A stretch of DNA of 64,000 nt, from contig NZ_CP154260.1 in assembly GCF_039545795.1 (NCBI RefSeq), forward strand, positions 6,515,001 to 6,579,000, written 5' to 3'. The DNA comes from Chitinophaga niabensis (GTDB lineage Bacteria > Bacteroidota > Bacteroidia > Chitinophagales > Chitinophagaceae). A program made the position numbers and the translations under genes. Below are positions 47,919 through 56,466 of this stretch, piece by piece. Each line of letters starts with the position of its first letter. Positions within the stretch are counted from its first letter, which is position 1. The notes under the pieces are model-generated. The model searched no databases. It was not told where the DNA came from and saw only the letters and a list, made by a program, of their open reading frames with translations.

Positions 47919-50900
47919 ATGTCCAGTAAATATCGTGAATACAGTCAGCTGAATTTACCACAAATAGAACAGGATATACTGCAAGCATGGGATCAGCAGC
48001 AGATCTTCGAAAAAAGCGTCACCAATCGTGATGGGGCCGCGCCTTTCGTATTTTATGAAGGCCCGCCCAGTGCAAATGGATTACCGGGCATTCACCACGT
48101 GATCTCACGGGCCCTGAAAGATCTGGTATGCCGCTATAAAACCATGCAGGGTTTCCAGGTAAAACGCAAAAGCGGATGGGATACCCATGGTCTCCCTGTT
48201 GAATTGGGCGTGGAAAAGGCATTGGGTATCACGAAAGAAGATATTGGAAAAAAAATATCTATTGCAGAGTACAACGATACCTGTCGTAAAGAGGTATTAA
48301 AATATAAAGGAGAGTGGGAAAACCTGACCCGCAAAATGGGATATTGGGTAGACCTCCAGGACCCTTACATTACTTTCGATAATAATTATATAGAAAGCCT
48401 TTGGTGGTGTTTGCAACAACTTTACAAGAAGGGCTTCCTCTATAAAAGTGTAAGCATCCAGCCATATTCACCTGCTGCCGGCACAGGGCTTAGCTCTCAT
48501 GAGCTGAACCAGCCCGGTACTTATAAAGATGTGAAGGATACTACTGTGGTGGCCATGTTTAAAGCCATCGCCGGAGAGAAATCGCAATTCTTATTTGATG
48601 CTGCCGGCTCTGAAGAAGTGTTCTTCATGGCCTGGACCACCACTCCCTGGACGCTTCCATCCAACCTCGGTCTTACTGTAGGCGCCAATATTGAATATGT
48701 ATTGGTGAAAACCTTTAACCCATATACCCATCTGCCTATTAATGTGGTATTGGCGAAAGACCTCATGGGCAAATATTTCAAACCGGAAGGAGAGAATGGC
48801 GATTTTGCTGCCTATCAGCCGGATGACAAAATAATCCCCTGGACTGTACTGGCCTCCTTCAAAGGCAGCCAGCTGGAAAATATCCATTACGAACAACTGT
48901 TGCCATATGTTCAGCCGGAAGAGGGAGATCCCTTCCGCGTGCTGCTGGGAGATTTTGTGACCACGGAAGATGGTACCGGTATTGTTCATACCGCACCTGC
49001 TTTTGGTGCAGACGACAACCGCGTAGGTAAAAAATATGGTATCGGCATCCTCACACTGGTAGACAGACAAGGGAAATTCCTGGATTCCGTTGGGGAATTC
49101 GGAGGCCGTTATGTAAAAGATTATAAGAATGAACCCGGATATAAAGATGTTGATGTAGACATCGCCGTGAAACTGAAAAAGGAGAACCGGGCCTTCAAAG
49201 TTGAAAAATACGAGCACACCTACCCACATTGCTGGCGTACAGACAAACCAGTACTGTATTATCCACTGGATGCCTGGTTTATCAAAACCACTGCGGTGAA
49301 AGACCGGATGGTGGAACTGAACAAGACCATCAACTGGAAACCCGCCGCTACCGGAACAGGCCGTTTTGGTAACTGGCTGGAGAATATGGTGGATTGGAAC
49401 CTGAGCCGCAGCCGGTACTGGGGAACCCCTCTGCCGATATGGCGTACAGAAGATGGTACGGAAGAGATCTGCATAGGCAGTATCGCTGAACTGAATGCTG
49501 GTATCCGTCTTGCAAATGAAGTGCTGGGAGGAGATGTGAACAAACATTACCTGCATGAAGGCATCCTGGACCTCCATAAACCTTATGTGGATGATATCAT
49601 CCTCGTAAGTTCCACTGGCAAACCCATGCGCCGCGAGCCAGACCTGGTGGATGTTTGGTTTGACAGTGGGGCCATGCCTGTGGCGCAATGGCATTATCCC
49701 TTCGAGAATAAAGACACCATAGATAAAGGCCAGGCTTTCCCTGCTGATTTTATTGCTGAAGGCGTGGATCAGACCCGTGGATGGTTTTACACACTTCATG
49801 CCCTGGGGGTGATGCTGTTCGATAGCGTAGCTTATAAAACAGTGGTATCCAACGGTCTCGTATTAGATAAGAATGGCAACAAAATGAGTAAACGCCTCGG
49901 TAACGTGGTGAACCCTTTTGAAACCATCGATAAGTTTGGAGCAGATGCTACCCGCTGGTACCTGATCACCAATGCCTCTCCATGGGATAACATGAAGTTT
50001 GATGTGGAAGGCATTAAAGAGGTACAACGGAAACTGTTCGGTACATTATATAATACGTACAACTTCTTCGCGATGTATGCCAACCTGGATAATTTCAGGT
50101 TTAAGGAGGCATATATCCCATTGGAACAACGTCCGGAAATTGACCGGTGGATCATTTCCTCGCTCAATACCCTGGTAAGGCAGGTGAGCTCCAGCCTGGA
50201 GGAATATGAGCCAACGCAGGCCGGGCGTGCCGTTCAGGAATTTGTGGACGAACATCTCAGTAACTGGTATGTGCGTCTTTGCCGCCGCCGGTTCTGGAAA
50301 GGGGAGTATGAGCATGATAAGATCTGCGCATACCAGACCTTATATGAATGCCTTGAAAAAGTAGCCCGGCTGATGGCCCCGGTATCTCCTTTCTTTACAG
50401 ACTGGCTGTACCGCAACCTGAATGAAGTAAGTGGCAGGCTGTCATCCGAATCCGTTCACCTGACAGATTTCCCGGTAGCAGATAATGCTGCGATAGACAC
50501 AGACCTGGAAGAGCGGATGCAACTGGCGCAGGATATTTCATCATTGGTATTATCCTTGCGTAAGAAAATGAATATTAAGGTCCGTCAGCCACTTCAGAAG
50601 ATCCTGATACCTGTGCTGAACCCTCATATGCGGGATCAGTTGACTTTGGTGGAACATTTGGTGAAAAGCGAAGTGAATGTGAAAAGTATTGAGTACCTTA
50701 CGGAAACGGAAGGTTTCATCAAGAAAAAGATCAAGCCAAACTTTAAAACCCTGGGCAGCAGGATGGGAGCTAAGATGAAAGCAGTAGCTAACGCCATCAA
50801 TGCATTTGCTCAACATGACATTGCCACGTTGGAAAAAGAAGGTGAATTTGGCTTAGTTATTGATTCTGAACGAGTTCCAATACTATTATCCGATGTCGAG

Positions 50901-51245
50901 ATCATCTCGGAAGATATTCCGGGATGGACGGTAGCTAACAAAGGTTCGCTTACCGTGGCCTTAGATATTACAATTACTCCTGAATTACTGGACGAGGGTA
51001 ATGCCCGTGAACTGGTTAACCGGATCCAGAAGATACGGAAGGATAGCGGATTTGAGCTAACTGACCGGATTTCGGTAAAAGTGGCAGATGTAGCGACTTT
51101 GAAAACGGCGATAATAAACTTTAATGACTATATTTGCACGGAAATTTTGGCAGATAGTTTGGATGTAGTGCCGCAATTACAGGAGGGCATTGAGGTAGAG
51201 GTCAACGATCTTAAGTTCAACGTATTAGTTAACAAAAAAAGCTAA
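47919..51245 (+). CDS. ileS: Isoleucine--tRNA ligase, GxHH type
   Basis: 1108 residues, of the long type-2 form with a C-terminal extension. The class-I signature that is normally HIGH reads GIHH (residues 57-60, bases 48087-48098) in GLPGIHHV; the KMSKR loop is intact (NGNKMSKRLGN). The editing domain (CP1) with TWTTTPWTLPSNL is present, and zinc-type cysteine pairs are absent. The GxHH variant is described for IleRS2 enzymes that resist mupirocin strongly. Followed five bases later by the DksA-like gene. Confidence 0.97.
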   Translation: MSSKYREYSQLNLPQIEQDILQAWDQQQIFEKSVTNRDGAAPFVFYEGPPSANGLPGIHHVISRALKDLVCRYKTMQGFQVKRKSGWDTHGLPVELGVEKALGITKEDIGKKISIAEYNDTCRKEVLKYKGEWENLTRKMGYWVDLQDPYITFDNNYIESLWWCLQQLYKKGFLYKSVSIQPYSPAAGTGLSSHELNQPGTYKDVKDTTVVAMFKAIAGEKSQFLFDAAGSEEVFFMAWTTTPWTLPSNLGLTVGANIEYVLVKTFNPYTHLPINVVLAKDLMGKYFKPEGENGDFAAYQPDDKIIPWTVLASFKGSQLENIHYEQLLPYVQPEEGDPFRVLLGDFVTTEDGTGIVHTAPAFGADDNRVGKKYGIGILTLVDRQGKFLDSVGEFGGRYVKDYKNEPGYKDVDVDIAVKLKKENRAFKVEKYEHTYPHCWRTDKPVLYYPLDAWFIKTTAVKDRMVELNKTINWKPAATGTGRFGNWLENMVDWNLSRSRYWGTPLPIWRTEDGTEEICIGSIAELNAGIRLANEVLGGDVNKHYLHEGILDLHKPYVDDIILVSSTGKPMRREPDLVDVWFDSGAMPVAQWHYPFENKDTIDKGQAFPADFIAEGVDQTRGWFYTLHALGVMLFDSVAYKTVVSNGLVLDKNGNKMSKRLGNVVNPFETIDKFGADATRWYLITNASPWDNMKFDVEGIKEVQRKLFGTLYNTYNFFAMYANLDNFRFKEAYIPLEQRPEIDRWIISSLNTLVRQVSSSLEEYEPTQAGRAVQEFVDEHLSNWYVRLCRRRFWKGEYEHDKICAYQTLYECLEKVARLMAPVSPFFTDWLYRNLNEVSGRLSSESVHLTDFPVADNAAIDTDLEERMQLAQDISSLVLSLRKKMNIKVRQPLQKILIPVLNPHMRDQLTLVEHLVKSEVNVKSIEYLTETEGFIKKKIKPNFKTLGSRMGAKMKAVANAINAFAQHDIATLEKEGEFGLVIDSERVPILLSDVEIISEDIPGWTVANKGSLTVALDITITPELLDEGNARELVNRIQKIRKDSGFELTDRISVKVADVATLKTAIINFNDYICTEILADSLDVVPQLQEGIEVEVNDLKFNVLVNKKS

Positions 51246-51250
51246 TCCCC

Positions 51251-52267
51251 ATGGCAACAAAGAAGAAAGTTGCTAGTAAGACTACTAAAAAGGCGGTTCC
51301 GGCCAAAAAAGCTGTAGCTAAAAAGGCACCCGCTCCTGCTGCTAAAAAATCGGCTGCTAAACCGGCACCTGCTAAAAAAGCAGCTCCGGCGAAGGCGGCT
51401 CCTAAAAAAGCGGCATCAAAGGCAGCGGCAAAACCCGCTCCTAAGAAAGCCGTAGTAAACAAGGTAACGGCGAAAGCAGCGCCTGCAAAGGCTGCTCCGG
51501 CTAAAAAGCCGGCTGTAACTGCCAGTAAAAAGCCCGTTCCGGCTCCTAAAGCGCCAGTAAAGAAAGCAGTACCTCCTGCTCCGGCGCCTAAAGCCAAACC
51601 CGCTCCGGCAGCTACCACCAAGCCCGCAGCTAAATCACCAGCTGCTGCCCAACCGGTTATTTCTAAACCCGTAGAAAAAGTAGATATAATGCCAGCAAAG
51701 AATAAACAGGACAAACCAGAAAAGGAGACAGTTAAAAAATCCACTGTTGTGGAACCTGCTAAACGGCTTACGGAAAGACCGACTTCCAGAACTGCTTCTA
51801 AATCTTCAGGTGGCAGACCAGTGATGAAAACCGTCACTTATACCCCTGAGTTCACTAAATCCGTATTAGATCAGCCAGATGCACAGGTTGGTCCGATCTA
51901 CCGTTACAGCGATAGCGAATTACAGGAGTTCAAAGAGATCATCCTGAAAAAGCTGGACGCTGCAAAAAAAGAACTCGTATATCTCCAGGGCCTGATCACC
52001 CGCAAGGATGAAGCCGGTACTGATGATACTGAAAATAAATACATGAGCATGGAAGATGGTGGCGGTTCCCAGGAGCGTGAGCAACTGAACCAAATGGCCA
52101 GCCGTCAGATCCAGTTCGTGGATCACCTGGAGAAAGCAATTGTGCGGATTGAGAATAAAACATACGGTATCTGCCGTGTTACAGGTAAGCTGATCGATAA
52201 AGCCCGCCTGAAAGCTGTGCCACATGCTACCTTAAGCATTGAGGCAAAGTTGTCCAAAAGCAAATAG
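51251..52267 (+). CDS. DksA/TraR-type protein with histone-H1-like tail
   Basis: 338 residues. The first about 135 are Lys/Ala/Pro repeats (APAKAAPKKAASK-like), a composition of histone H1 C-tails; about 140-195 is a charged linker; the C-terminal 120 are DksA-like: coiled-coil helices ending YGICRVTGKLIDKARLKAVP. Only one cysteine (C308) remains of the four zinc ligands. An internal Met147 at base 51689 could start a short DksA-like form. Co-transcribed with ileS. Confidence 0.88.
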   Translation: MATKKKVASKTTKKAVPAKKAVAKKAPAPAAKKSAAKPAPAKKAAPAKAAPKKAASKAAAKPAPKKAVVNKVTAKAAPAKAAPAKKPAVTASKKPVPAPKAPVKKAVPPAPAPKAKPAPAATTKPAAKSPAAAQPVISKPVEKVDIMPAKNKQDKPEKETVKKSTVVEPAKRLTERPTSRTASKSSGGRPVMKTVTYTPEFTKSVLDQPDAQVGPIYRYSDSELQEFKEIILKKLDAAKKELVYLQGLITRKDEAGTDDTENKYMSMEDGGGSQEREQLNQMASRQIQFVDHLEKAIVRIENKTYGICRVTGKLIDKARLKAVPHATLSIEAKLSKSK

Positions 52268-52979: not shown

Positions 52980-54536
52980 TTATGCAGGCTTTAACGCTTT
53001 CACATCCACATCATCACTATCCGTTTCAAAAGCCTTTTTAATTTGTTTCGCTGCTAAATAAACGAGCCCTGCTGTTGCTACCGCGGCCAGGCTTCCTATC
53101 CCGATATTCCGCATCAGCTTTTTGCTTGGCCAGCGGTTGCTCCTCCGTGCCGCGCTCCCTGCCTGTGCAATATCCAGCAAAGGTGCCATACATATATCTT
53201 CTATAACCTTGTCCGCCATGGTTTCCACTTCCACAAATTGTGGATGATATGCCACACCAACCCCTGCTTCCTGCAACATAACGCGGTCGCTTTCACCGTT
53301 CCCCACATAGATCACATTCTGTGGAGAGATGTGGTATTTGTCTGAAATATATTTCAGGATATTGCTCTTATCGTAAGTAGCGGAAGGATTACCTCCATCC
53401 ATGAAATATTCAGGGATCGTTAGTTCGCCTGTAGACACGCTGTGGATCAGGTGCAGCCGGTTAGCAAATGCAAAATCAGCGCCCAGTTTATTCTTCATAT
53501 GATTTGCCACACACTCAAAACCATCTGTGATAAAACCGCACACATAACCGCGTTTCTTTAATTCACGGATCACATGCCGGATATCCGGTGTTACCGGAAT
53601 ACTGTCTGCCACTTCCAGCAGTTCAGCCAGGTTGCGGCCCTGGAACAGCGCTGCAGAACGTTCCAGCCTGACAACCGGATCTGAATAATGCTCCAGGATC
53701 TGGTACAATGCATCCTCTTTATCAAATGCCAGTGCAGCGAGGTAGGTGTAATTTTGGGTGAATACCGTTTCGTCCAGGTTAAAGATCACCATCTTCTGCA
53801 ACTTGTCTATAGACTCCAGGATGGAGAACTCCATCTGCTCACGGATGATGTTGATATTACCCAGTGTTTCCAGGTTCTGCACCGGAATGCTTTCTGCTTT
53901 ACGCAAAATGGTGCGGGACACTTCCCGGCTCATTTTACTAAGCTGCTCCCATGTTTGCATAGCGTTTTCCAGCTTGCCGATATTCACTTCCCGAATGCGC
54001 GCCTGTAATAAATGCATATCTATCAGCAGGCCGATATCAACACCATAATCATTTTCAAAATGCACCTGCTTCAGCAAAGATTTCCGTGCAGCGATCATGC
54101 CACTCAGCGGTTGCTGGAAATGTGAAAGATCGGGAAACAGAATGCTCAGCAACGGTTTGGCAACTAACTGTGTTACCCTGCCTGCCTGCCGTTCAAAATA
54201 TGATTTGGTAAAATCTGCTTCATCATTCACAATCGAATCTGTCAGCAGCTCCACCAGGTTTTCCGGATACGTGAGGATGTCGCCGTCCACATACATAATA
54301 ATATCATGTTTGGCGGCCATCATGCCTTCCCGCATAGAAATGCCTTTACCGCGCTGACTGCTTGTGATCACACGCACTTTCTCTTTCAGCGCTTCCTCAA
54401 CGGTATTATCTGTTGAATTATCATCCACTACTATGATCTCAATAGCACGTGCCGTTTTTTTGATCACCTTGATCACCTGTCTGATAGTAGCCCCTTCGTT
54501 GAGTACTGGTATAATTACGGAAATCATAGGTCTCAA
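52980..54536 (-). CDS. GpgS-like glycosyltransferase fused to an inactive-looking HAD domain
   Basis: 518 residues. Residues 1-210 are a GT-A glycosyltransferase similar to glucosyl-3-phosphoglycerate synthase: VVDDNSTDNT, the metal DxD motif in YVDGDI (84-86), RVTQLVAKPLL and YGVDIGLLID. Residues about 248-440 are a SerB-like HAD phosphatase fold: T337 in motif II and K390 in YDK remain, but the motif-I nucleophile Asp is N253 (FNLDET) and the first Asp of motif IV is N413 (GNGESD). A transmembrane helix (about 476-495) and acidic tail end the protein. Proposed sugar-phosphate or glycosylglycerate role is inference. Confidence 0.9.
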   Translation of the reverse strand: MRPMISVIIPVLNEGATIRQVIKVIKKTARAIEIIVVDDNSTDNTVEEALKEKVRVITSSQRGKGISMREGMMAAKHDIIMYVDGDILTYPENLVELLTDSIVNDEADFTKSYFERQAGRVTQLVAKPLLSILFPDLSHFQQPLSGMIAARKSLLKQVHFENDYGVDIGLLIDMHLLQARIREVNIGKLENAMQTWEQLSKMSREVSRTILRKAESIPVQNLETLGNINIIREQMEFSILESIDKLQKMVIFNLDETVFTQNYTYLAALAFDKEDALYQILEHYSDPVVRLERSAALFQGRNLAELLEVADSIPVTPDIRHVIRELKKRGYVCGFITDGFECVANHMKNKLGADFAFANRLHLIHSVSTGELTIPEYFMDGGNPSATYDKSNILKYISDKYHISPQNVIYVGNGESDRVMLQEAGVGVAYHPQFVEVETMADKVIEDICMAPLLDIAQAGSAARRSNRWPSKKLMRNIGIGSLAAVATAGLVYLAAKQIKKAFETDSDDVDVKALKPA

Positions 54537-54589: not shown

Positions 54590-54624
54590 AAAAAGGCATT
54601 CTGCCTGCAACAGAATGCCTTTTT
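54590..54624 (-). terminator. Terminator of the MsbA-like ABC gene
   Basis: 14-bp stem (54590-54603/54611-54624), 7-base loop, A and T flanks; just beyond the ABC stop and before the GT-HAD start. Confidence 0.88.
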
Positions 54625-54645: not shown

Positions 54646-56466
54646 CTATTTAAATTCCTGCATTTCTACCAGCTTTTTGTAGATACCGTTGTTGGTCAGT
54701 AGCTGGTCGTGCTGCCCTCTTTCCATGATCTCACCCTTATCCATAACAATTATTTCATGAGCATGCTGGATAGTGGAAAGCCGGTGTGCGATCACAATGG
54801 TGGTGCGATTCTGCATCAGTTTGTCCAACGCCTCCTGCACCAGCTTTTCGGATTCTGTATCCAATGCAGAAGTAGCTTCATCCAATATCAGGATCGGTGG
54901 ATTTTTAAAGATGGCCCGCGCAATGGTGAGCCGTTGACGCTGACCACCACTGAGTTTGCTGCCTCTGTCCCCGATGGAGGTATCATAACCATTTTCCAGG
55001 TGTGTGATGAACTCATGCGCATTGGCAATTTTCGCTGCTTCTATCACCTTAGCAGGGTCTGCATCTGTTTGTCCGAATGCGATGTTGTTGAACACACTGT
55101 CATTGAACAATATAGCTTCCTGCGAAACGATGCCCATCAATTGCCGCAGGTCCTGCAATTTAAGATCACGTACATCTTTTCCATCTATCGTGATCTTTCC
55201 TTCACTCGCATCATAGAAACGCGGAAGCAGATCTGCCATGGTAGATTTACCGGCACCGCTTTTTCCTACCAATGCAATCATCCTTCCTTTTTCAATAGTC
55301 AGATTAATATCCCTTAATACATATTGTTCATCATACTTGAAAGAGAGGTTTTGATAAGAGATATTATCCTTAAAGGCAGACACAGCTATAGCGTCAGCTT
55401 TATCCTGGATCTCCACCGGTTCATCCAATACATCAAAGATGCGCTCACCTGCAACCAGGCCTCTTTGCATAGAGGTGAATGCAGCAGAGATATTCTTTGC
55501 GGGTTGAAGGATGGTGAAGTATAATCCCAGGTACATGATGAAAGTGCCCGGTTTAATTTCTCCGGTTTCCAGTACCATATAGCCACCCACCAGCACAAGG
55601 AAAACCACTAAGATCACACCCAATGCTTCTGAAATAGGCGAAGCCAGTTCACGCTGATTATAGATGGCTTTGCTTAAACGGGTAAATGCATGGGTGATGG
55701 CACCAAATTTCTGCTGCATATATTTCTGTGCCGTAAAACTCTGAATGATACGTACACCACCCAGTGTTTCTTCGGACACATTCAGCATTTTTCCTAACAT
55801 CTCCTGGCTGTAGTAACCTTTCTTGCGCAGCTGTTTTGAAATATAAGAGATCAGCAGGCCGGACAATGGAAAGAATATCAGGGTGAATAAAGTAAGCTTC
55901 AGCGATATGTAGAACAGCGCAATGAAAGTGCCGATAATGATGAGCGGATCACGCAATAGTACCTGTATCGAGTTAGCAATGATGTATTCTACTTCAGATA
56001 CATCATTCGTCATAACAGACAACAGATCTCCTTTACGGCGTTTATTGAAAAAAGAAAGGGATTGTGTGGTTGCCTGTTCGTATAATTTATTCCGCATCCT
56101 TTCCAGTATGTTCATCCGTAACCGGATCATTACCCGCATGCCCAGGTAACGGGCAGTATTAGTAATTACTGTAGCAGCCCCGATAATAGCACACACAAAT
56201 CCCAAAGCATTTAACTTACCATATACATCGCTGATCTGGAGGAAGTAGTATTGGAACAGATCCGTAAAATAGCCAACGGTCAGGGAGAATTCAGGCATAG
56301 CAGGTACCTCCGTTTTTTCCGTACTGAATAGCACATCCAGCAAGGGAGCCAGCATGGCAAAATTCACCAGTCCGAATATGATCCCGATGATAGAATAGAT
56401 CAGGTATTCCGGTAAATAATGGTGCAAGGGCTTCACAAATGCCAGCAAACGCTTAAAAGTCTTCAT
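54646..56466 (-). CDS. MsbA-like ABC exporter (fused permease-ATPase)
   Basis: 606 residues. Six transmembrane helices to about 320, then the nucleotide-binding domain with Walker A GKSGAGKST, signature LSGGQRQR, Walker B ILILDEATSALD and H-loop IAHRLST. The layout suits lipid A or lipid-linked substrate export; MsbA is the closest functional family but the substrate is unproven. TACTTTTG promoter box at 56487-56494. Confidence 0.93.
   Translation of the reverse strand: MKTFKRLLAFVKPLHHYLPEYLIYSIIGIIFGLVNFAMLAPLLDVLFSTEKTEVPAMPEFSLTVGYFTDLFQYYFLQISDVYGKLNALGFVCAIIGAATVITNTARYLGMRVMIRLRMNILERMRNKLYEQATTQSLSFFNKRRKGDLLSVMTNDVSEVEYIIANSIQVLLRDPLIIIGTFIALFYISLKLTLFTLIFFPLSGLLISYISKQLRKKGYYSQEMLGKMLNVSEETLGGVRIIQSFTAQKYMQQKFGAITHAFTRLSKAIYNQRELASPISEALGVILVVFLVLVGGYMVLETGEIKPGTFIMYLGLYFTILQPAKNISAAFTSMQRGLVAGERIFDVLDEPVEIQDKADAIAVSAFKDNISYQNLSFKYDEQYVLRDINLTIEKGRMIALVGKSGAGKSTMADLLPRFYDASEGKITIDGKDVRDLKLQDLRQLMGIVSQEAILFNDSVFNNIAFGQTDADPAKVIEAAKIANAHEFITHLENGYDTSIGDRGSKLSGGQRQRLTIARAIFKNPPILILDEATSALDTESEKLVQEALDKLMQNRTTIVIAHRLSTIQHAHEIIVMDKGEIMERGQHDQLLTNNGIYKKLVEMQEFK

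Follow-up and report, generated by a model that had tools for sequence, protein, structure and literature searches.

What purpose can a phosphatase domain serve once the aspartates needed for its chemistry have been replaced? The question is raised by a gene of Chitinophaga niabensis lying in a stretch of 64,000 nucleotides (positions 6,515,001 to 6,579,000 of contig NZ_CP154260.1, assembly GCF_039545795.1), hereafter the window, in a genome made of a single contig of 7.2 Mb. The gene (52980..54527, minus strand, in window positions) encodes a protein of 515 amino acids (P0002), the window protein, in which a GpgS-like glycosyltransferase (GT) domain is followed by a HAD domain without its catalytic aspartates and by a C-terminal hydrophobic helix. 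Comparison with its homologues points to a GpgS/MpgS-type GT that is probably membrane-tethered and whose pseudophosphatase half would bind a phosphorylated ligand, a reading to which we give a probability of about 55%.

An initial annotation of this DNA had read asparagine in place of aspartate at motifs I and IV of the HAD half, with Lys390 and Thr337 kept, and had proposed a preserved fold with no catalysis expected. The codons were re-read on the minus strand and are all as described: AAC for N253 (53778-53780) and for N413 (53298-53300), GAC for D255, ACA for T337, AAG for K390 and GAC for D417. Residue numbers throughout are those of that annotation, counted from a TTG at 54536; the true start is probably the ATG at 54527, three codons downstream, which gives the 515-residue database protein, rather than the TTG, which opens a longer frame with three extra residues. 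The GT domain (residues 4-214, 53895..54527, minus strand as are all parts of the gene) carries DxD (54279-54287) and GRVT (54171-54182) motifs and is joined by a linker (residues 215-244, 53805..53894) to a HAD-IB/SerB-like domain (residues about 245-457, 53166..53804), both domains having been assigned by Pfam, NCBIfam and PDB searches. In the latter, motif I reads VIFNLDET (53766..53789), with N253 replacing the nucleophile and D255 kept, motif II (53511..53537) keeps T337, motif III (53361..53375) keeps K390, and motif IV reads VGNGESD (53286..53306), with N413 replacing an Mg-ligand aspartate and D417 kept. The retained motifs II and III, together with the HAD superfamily profiles reached by the protein (PF00702, 43.5 bits for a cut-off of 26.4; PF12710, 31.2 bits for a cut-off of 27), agree with the proposed fold, and the two asparagines with the proposed absence of catalysis. 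The hydrophobic helix (residues 478-496, 53049..53105), a hallmark of the long form of the protein and a probable tail anchor, has a mean Kyte-Doolittle hydropathy of 1.87 over 19 residues, and as judged by hydropathy only it is likely that the protein is anchored in the membrane.

The window protein reached 91.4 bits with the SerB model TIGR00338 (cut-off 144.15) and 164.8 bits with the GpgS model NF010496, GT81 (cut-off 262). Since it scores under both NCBI cut-offs, neither name is earned, and by the tests made it is a member of neither GpgS nor SerB. For the anchored form, the names given in databases ("phosphoserine phosphatase", "HAD-IB family phosphatase", "glucosyl-3-phosphoglycerate synthase") are probably wrong.

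Homologues fall into two forms, a soluble one of about 457 amino acids in which nothing follows the HAD domain and an anchored one of about 500 amino acids that bears the C-terminal hydrophobic helix, "anchored" meaning here that 19 consecutive residues after the HAD domain have a mean hydropathy >1.0, a definition that involves no topology program. Six catalytic residues of the HAD domain were scored: the first and second aspartates of motif I (D1 and D2), the Ser/Thr, the Lys and two further aspartates. Similarity searches provided the best 120 of 1732, 2312 and 3874 matches, among at most 8000 scored candidates, and among the matches listed (250 proteins) the six residues were intact in none of the 113 anchored proteins, versus 136 of the 137 others, the exception being a truncated Chitinophaga record (P0062). 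After removal of near-copies of >90% identity and addition of genome loci (166 anchored rows reduced to 92 and 180 soluble rows to 106, the protein rows again being among the matches listed), all six were intact in 0/92 anchored versus 99/106 soluble rows. These two sets leave out the pieces of a frameshifted copy (L077), the truncated P0062 and P0136, P0001, which is the same protein as P0002, and split or free HAD and GT pieces of <440 residues. The loss is uneven, as anchored rows keep Ser/Thr337 in 91/92 cases and Lys/Arg390 in 91/92 (Lys in 80), with Asp253 present in 36/92, Asp255 in 61/92, Asp413 in 18/92 and Asp417 in 80/92.

The fusion is patchily distributed, being present in 61/396 genomes of the order Chitinophagales (E <= 1e-60, including two with separate GT and HAD frames) and in 8/395 genomes of a phylum sample, three of them outside the order (E <= 1e-50). 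Three genomes of the genus coded g34 (G154, G346 and G375) have an anchored copy alongside a soluble one. As to gene structure, GT and HAD are encoded in two distinct frames, which adjoin or overlap each other, in G371 and G258 (L149:4001-5460, L150:3971-5357) and which may be either unfused genes or frameshifts, and the copy of Chitinophaga sp. E66 is split into two frames (L077:5982-7549, L216).

The two asparagines of the window protein do not have the same standing among its close relatives, the nearest named contigs being those of Chitinophaga (96% identity). Asn253 is present in 29 of 30 orthologues (those of 33 near-full-length matches for which loci were obtained), the remaining one having Asp253 but Gly413, in 49/49 loci on genome contigs (48 Chitinophaga and one Flavihumibacter) and in 70 of the 71 Chitinophaga-type rows left after dereplication at 95%; two rows with histidine, P0041 and P0048, are absent from this last set because they were removed as near-copies. 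Position 413 varies, with Asp in 20, Asn in 14, Ser in 14 and a gap in one of the 49 loci. The change in motif I is therefore nearly fixed and is neither chance nor a local oddity, while that in motif IV is drift, so that of the two residues whose conservation the alignment was to reveal only N253 is conserved, and N413 was rejected as a fixed feature. D255 is kept in 71/71 Chitinophaga-type rows. The column of N253 ranks 32nd among 213 HAD columns, 31 others being equally or more conserved. Orthologues with aspartate at both positions were found nowhere among those of Chitinophaga; they appear in the deeper soluble homologues (99/106 intact), and the loss of the residues is thus secondary.

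In a tree of the GT half, the 36 anchored rows out of 60 stand on one side of a single branch (ultrafast bootstrap 100, SH-aLRT 100), and the same split is recovered with the HAD half deprived of its six active-site columns (SH-aLRT 100, 36 anchored of 70 rows); in a larger quick tree of 99 rows, the 48 anchored rows form one clade (support 99) nested within soluble rows. These trees were midpoint-rooted for drawing and do not include L170 and L171, two fusions from beyond the order. A single gain of the anchor is thus the apparent history. The decay differs from lineage to lineage: motif I has become Asn-x-Asp in Chitinophaga, Glu-x-Asp (once Glu-x-Asn) in g34, and Asp-x-Asn, -Ser or -Gly in Agriterribacter, Foetidibacter and other Chitinophagaceae. 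The repeated element is the manner of decay, which affects different residues in different lineages. Over 60 rows, parsimony counted five changes at D1, six at D2 and nine at position 413 (Asp or not), for two at position 390 (Lys/Arg or not) and one at position 337 (Ser/Thr or not).

The dead half is not decaying freely, as indicated by the ratios of nonsynonymous to synonymous substitutions (dN/dS) calculated on pairs sharing no row, with dS of 0.05-1.5 and duplicate pairs removed. The median dN/dS of the HAD half is 0.043 in anchored forms (17 of 26 pairs usable, range 0.009-0.074) versus 0.048 in soluble ones (5 of 10 pairs), which denotes purifying selection; the corresponding medians for the GT half are 0.025 (23 pairs) and 0.027 (7 pairs), and that of the linker is 0 in anchored forms (29 pairs, duplicates of the same gene being still included). 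The phosphatase chemistry has almost certainly been lost in the window protein, and the dead half very probably retains some function for which selection keeps it. Seven of 79 Chitinophaga genomes (G005, G009, G014, G031, G817, G818 and G822) have no match to the HAD half at E<=1e-8, and the gene thus appears dispensable at the species level.

What that function might be is suggested by the residues that were spared. According to PMC1769515, the Ser/Thr of motif II bonds the phosphate of the substrate. In phosphoserine phosphatase (PSP), Asp11 and Asp13 are described as the residues that carry out the reaction, the phosphoryl group being positioned by Ser99 and Lys144 together with loops 2 and 3, and Mg being bound by Asp167 (PMC6321591). 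With Ser/Thr337 and Lys/Arg390 retained and catalytic aspartates lost, the grip on the phosphate has thus been preserved while the chemistry and the metal site are gone. Among PDB entries, the HAD half of the window protein is best matched by 1l7o/1l7p, which have Asn at motif I (57.8 bits), just ahead of 1f5s, which has Asp (55.8 bits); the order is reversed when a soluble homologue (P0080) is used as query (76.6 versus 79.0 bits), and it therefore follows the motif I residue. The structure of the D11N mutant of PSP (1L7P) is reported to hold phosphoserine without Mg (PMC6321591), and by analogy we infer that the window HAD may be a natural counterpart of this mutant, likewise able to bind a ligand.

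The initial annotation had suggested a regulatory or binding module, which fits the retained Ser/Thr and Lys and the purifying selection. On balance we favor, by a modest preponderance, a pocket that binds a phospho-ligand without hydrolyzing it and that exerts a regulatory effect. In such a mechanism, the GT half would still work and make a phosphorylated glycoside; the HAD pocket, devoid of its Mg ligands, would hold a phospho-metabolite, either the GT product or the acceptor, unhydrolyzed; and the loaded HAD half would regulate the GT or present its product to a separate phosphatase. The GT half is compatible with this scheme in that the equivalents of GpgS Glu54, Lys114, Asp134, Asp136 and Thr187 are unchanged in 92/92 anchored rows, residues whose roles in the nucleotide-sugar and 3-phosphoglycerate pocket are described in PMC2581804.

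A separate phosphatase, which the initial annotation had also envisaged, has a candidate in the window genome. A free SerB-like HAD of 219 amino acids with all motifs intact is encoded there (G000:C1:4240641-4241300; L002:1561-2220; L169:4016-4675, minus strand), sharing 52% identity with the soluble form's HAD and 34% with the HAD half of the window protein. It adjoins argS and lies near dnaK (both identified by Pfam), and argS is adjacent in all nine genomes having a free HAD, the window genome included, dnaK being also within the fetched stretch in 7/9. The same site between argS and dnaK is occupied in a congener (G820) by a complete soluble fusion whose motifs are intact, and by a soluble fusion in two of four fetched genomes of the genus coded g35 (L122, intact; L134, broken). 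Among the 79 Chitinophaga genomes, 72 carry the fused type (in two frames in G828, the helix not being confirmed in each), and nine of these have in addition a free HAD. The second copy is a complete soluble fusion in G820 and a short degenerate one in G816, while the other 61 have none of these. In the HAD tree, eight of the nine free HADs are sister to the G820 copy (support 89) and then to four g35 copies (96). The simplest history compatible with these data would be that the ancestor had both copies, that the one at argS-dnaK was reduced in one group to its HAD half and that the phosphatase chemistry disappeared from the anchored one. The two copies of the window genome have, on this evidence, undergone complementary loss, each of the opposite half, and we infer that they serve one pathway. 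A phosphatase located elsewhere is therefore plausible for the window genome; a free partner in every genome with a dead half was rejected, the free HAD being present in just 9/72.

Several observations weigh against a ligand-binding pseudophosphatase. Because the anchored rows form one clade, the association of an anchor with a broken HAD is one evolutionary event and not 92. The mean entropy of HAD versus GT columns is 1.14 versus 0.39 in Chitinophaga-type rows and 1.57 versus 0.62 in other anchored rows, as compared to 0.96 versus 0.78 and 1.57 versus 1.07 in two soluble sets; the anchored HAD is thus looser relative to its own GT than in soluble forms, and its retention may be partly structural only. 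D417 is also lost in 12/92 anchored rows. Both loop-1 aspartates are retained in 7/92 anchored rows, which are broken at Asp413 (two of them also having Arg390), and three soluble rows show the same single change of Asp413 to Asn, which makes deadness less sure there than in the window protein. The HAD is broken in 7/106 soluble rows, including these three, and in the short copy of G816, and the anchor was consequently rejected as a requirement for HAD decay. In most Chitinophaga genomes no dedicated partner phosphatase was found, given the count of nine in 72. Finally, the position of GpgS His258 is Asn in 92/92 anchored and 104/106 soluble rows, so that neither the activity nor the product of the GT is assured.

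Part of this would be explained if the dead HAD were a structural spacer or a dimerization block allowing the GT and the anchor to fold, with no ligand binding at all. Such a role would suit the greater variability of HAD than of GT columns in anchored forms, and the loss of Asp413 accompanied in a minority of rows by that of Asp417. It does not account for the selective retention of positions 337 and 390, each kept in all but one of the 92 rows while other catalytic positions drift, nor for the near fixation of N253 in the Chitinophaga type, although the modest rank of that column softens the latter argument. We consider a mere spacer rather unlikely.

Two differences in the GT half accompany the anchor, perhaps reflecting a switch to another donor or acceptor. 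Position 40, which is next to the nucleotide site, has Asn in 91/92 anchored versus Lys in 93/106 soluble rows, and position 123, which immediately follows the acceptor motif GRVT, has Gln in 85/92 versus Glu in 105/106. These two matching changes in the anchored clade support the tentative and, in our opinion, unlikely proposal that the anchored GT has come to use a membrane-borne phospho-acceptor as its substrate, or else releases a phosphorylated product at the membrane, the HAD having become a sensor of phospho-ligands. Dephosphorylation in cis at the membrane would then be harmful. If true, a soluble synthase of solute type would have given rise to a glycosylating enzyme of the membrane of a kind not seen before.

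Another proposal concerns the partner and not the window gene, namely that the free HAD is the phosphoserine phosphatase of its host, unrelated to the GT pathway. The window genome indeed has no TIGR00338 match over the cut-off, and only the free HAD and the fusion are recovered at E<=1e-5. This explanation is nonetheless doubtful, since the position of PSP Glu20 (its equivalence being taken from the alignment of the window HAD with its PDB relatives) is occupied by Glu in 0/70 rows, free HADs included, and by Asn in the window protein, and since most congeners, having no free HAD, must obtain their serine by another route. Glu20 of PSP is reported to bind the amino group of serine (PMC6321591).

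Alternatively, labor could be split between the two copies, the anchored one acting as synthase and the free HAD as phosphatase of a single two-step pathway, with the dead half at most docking the phosphatase, a role that has been proposed in plant sucrose-phosphate synthase (SPS). The location of the free HAD, in nine Chitinophaga genomes, at the site of the complete fusion of G820 favors such a division, as does the report that plant SPS carries a domain similar to sucrose-phosphate phosphatase (SPP) and interacts with SPP (PMC4493782). However, the dead half is still conserved in the 63/72 fusion-bearing Chitinophaga genomes that have no free HAD (G820, with its complete soluble fusion, among them), and we find the proposal improbable. 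An active phosphatase maintained by an unusual route such as deamidation of Asn253, for which Asn as direct precursor of Asp and the invariable D255 could be invoked, was set aside as barely credible, because in other anchored lineages it is the second Asp that is missing and the first that stays, or Glu is present, with no common rescue, and because position 413 is free to be Ser, Asn, Asp, Glu or Gly.

An ABC exporter gene (54646..56466, minus strand; PF00664, 129.7 bits; PF00005, 118.7 bits), called msbA-like by the initial annotation, which had suggested that the helix could anchor the protein in the membrane beside the exporter, is a neighbor and not part of the system. A terminator-like stem (54590..54624) stands between the two genes, such sites numbering seven in 4.5 kb versus 3.9 expected from shuffles. 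A similar exporter gene is present upstream in 42/49 Chitinophaga-type genome-contig loci, and in 0/6 anchored loci of other genera and 0/45 non-anchored loci, counts being made within fetched flanks of about 4-6 kb (one contig being shorter). The helix itself is there; the link to msbA is weak, and coupling to the exporter was rejected as a general feature owing to its absence from the six other anchored loci and to the intervening stem. Around non-anchored loci, a universal-stress-protein gene is found in 16/45 (two clusters, of 14 and two), a CLC chloride channel in 9/45, a histidine kinase/regulator pair in 7/45 and NhaA in 2/45, one representative per cluster having been scanned and related genomes not being independent; these stress, CLC, kinase and NhaA clusters were found in 0/15 anchored loci examined. 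Other clusters at non-anchored loci are ordinary, e.g., acyl-CoA dehydrogenase (6/45). Such neighbors give hints that the soluble form may make a salt or stress solute, in line with the mannosylglycerate enzyme of Dehalococcoides. Elsewhere in the window, antisense open frames at 51229-51837 and 48591-49799 (minus strand) lie within plus-strand genes (51251-52267 and 47919-51245), with no evidence of being genes.

Known systems offer several partial parallels. Plant SPS and trehalose-phosphate synthase (TPS), like the window protein, combine a synthase GT with a C-terminal HAD phosphatase-like half. That half is inactive in plant SPS, and both plant enzymes belong to another GT fold family and to another HAD branch than the window protein. 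At the level of sequence only, the GT catalytic residues are intact and the C-terminal phosphatase half is degenerate yet conserved, as in plant TPS and SPS. Unlike these enzymes, the window protein is bacterial, joins a GpgS-like to a SerB-like domain and has a C-terminal hydrophobic helix, while a soluble relative persists whose motifs are intact. The phosphatase-like half of plant TPS is described as being without some active-site residues (PMC9569751), and selection is described as acting on sequences of TPS and trehalose-phosphate phosphatase that have no such residues (PMC1769515).

Closer in plan to the soluble relatives is MgsD of Dehalococcoides, a synthase of phosphoglycerate type fused to an active phosphatase, from which the window protein differs in having no phosphatase residues. 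The phosphatase of MgsD belongs to another HAD branch. MgsD was characterized as a bifunctional mannosylglycerate synthase/phosphatase with a potential osmotic role (PMC4720418). The closest solved relatives of the GT half are GpgS enzymes (GT81, 5.6e-26), with which it shares GRVT, DxD and the equivalents of Lys114 and Glu54; it differs from them by its fusion to a HAD, by Asn at the position of His258 (196/198 rows) and by Asp at that of Glu232 (198/198 rows, both forms). Similarly, the closest solved relatives of the HAD half are SerB and the D11N chain of Methanocaldococcus jannaschii PSP, the latter sharing the change of Asp to Asn, while the window HAD, unlike SerB, has no equivalent of Glu20.

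No recognized description of this GT-HAD fusion was found in the literature searched, most subscription journals being outside the search, which is thus no proof of absence. Plants and yeast provide known examples of GTs whose phosphatase half is degenerate (PMC4493782, PMC9569751, PMC1769515), and the role of the dead half is presented as still open for several of these synthases (PMC9569751). The bacterial case is apparently separate from the plant and yeast fusions. Related bacteria still have the soluble form with its motifs intact, the derivative that bears the anchor, both together in some genomes, and the free phosphatase left over from the other copy, and the survival of such natural pairs turns what a dead phosphatase does for its synthase into a testable question.

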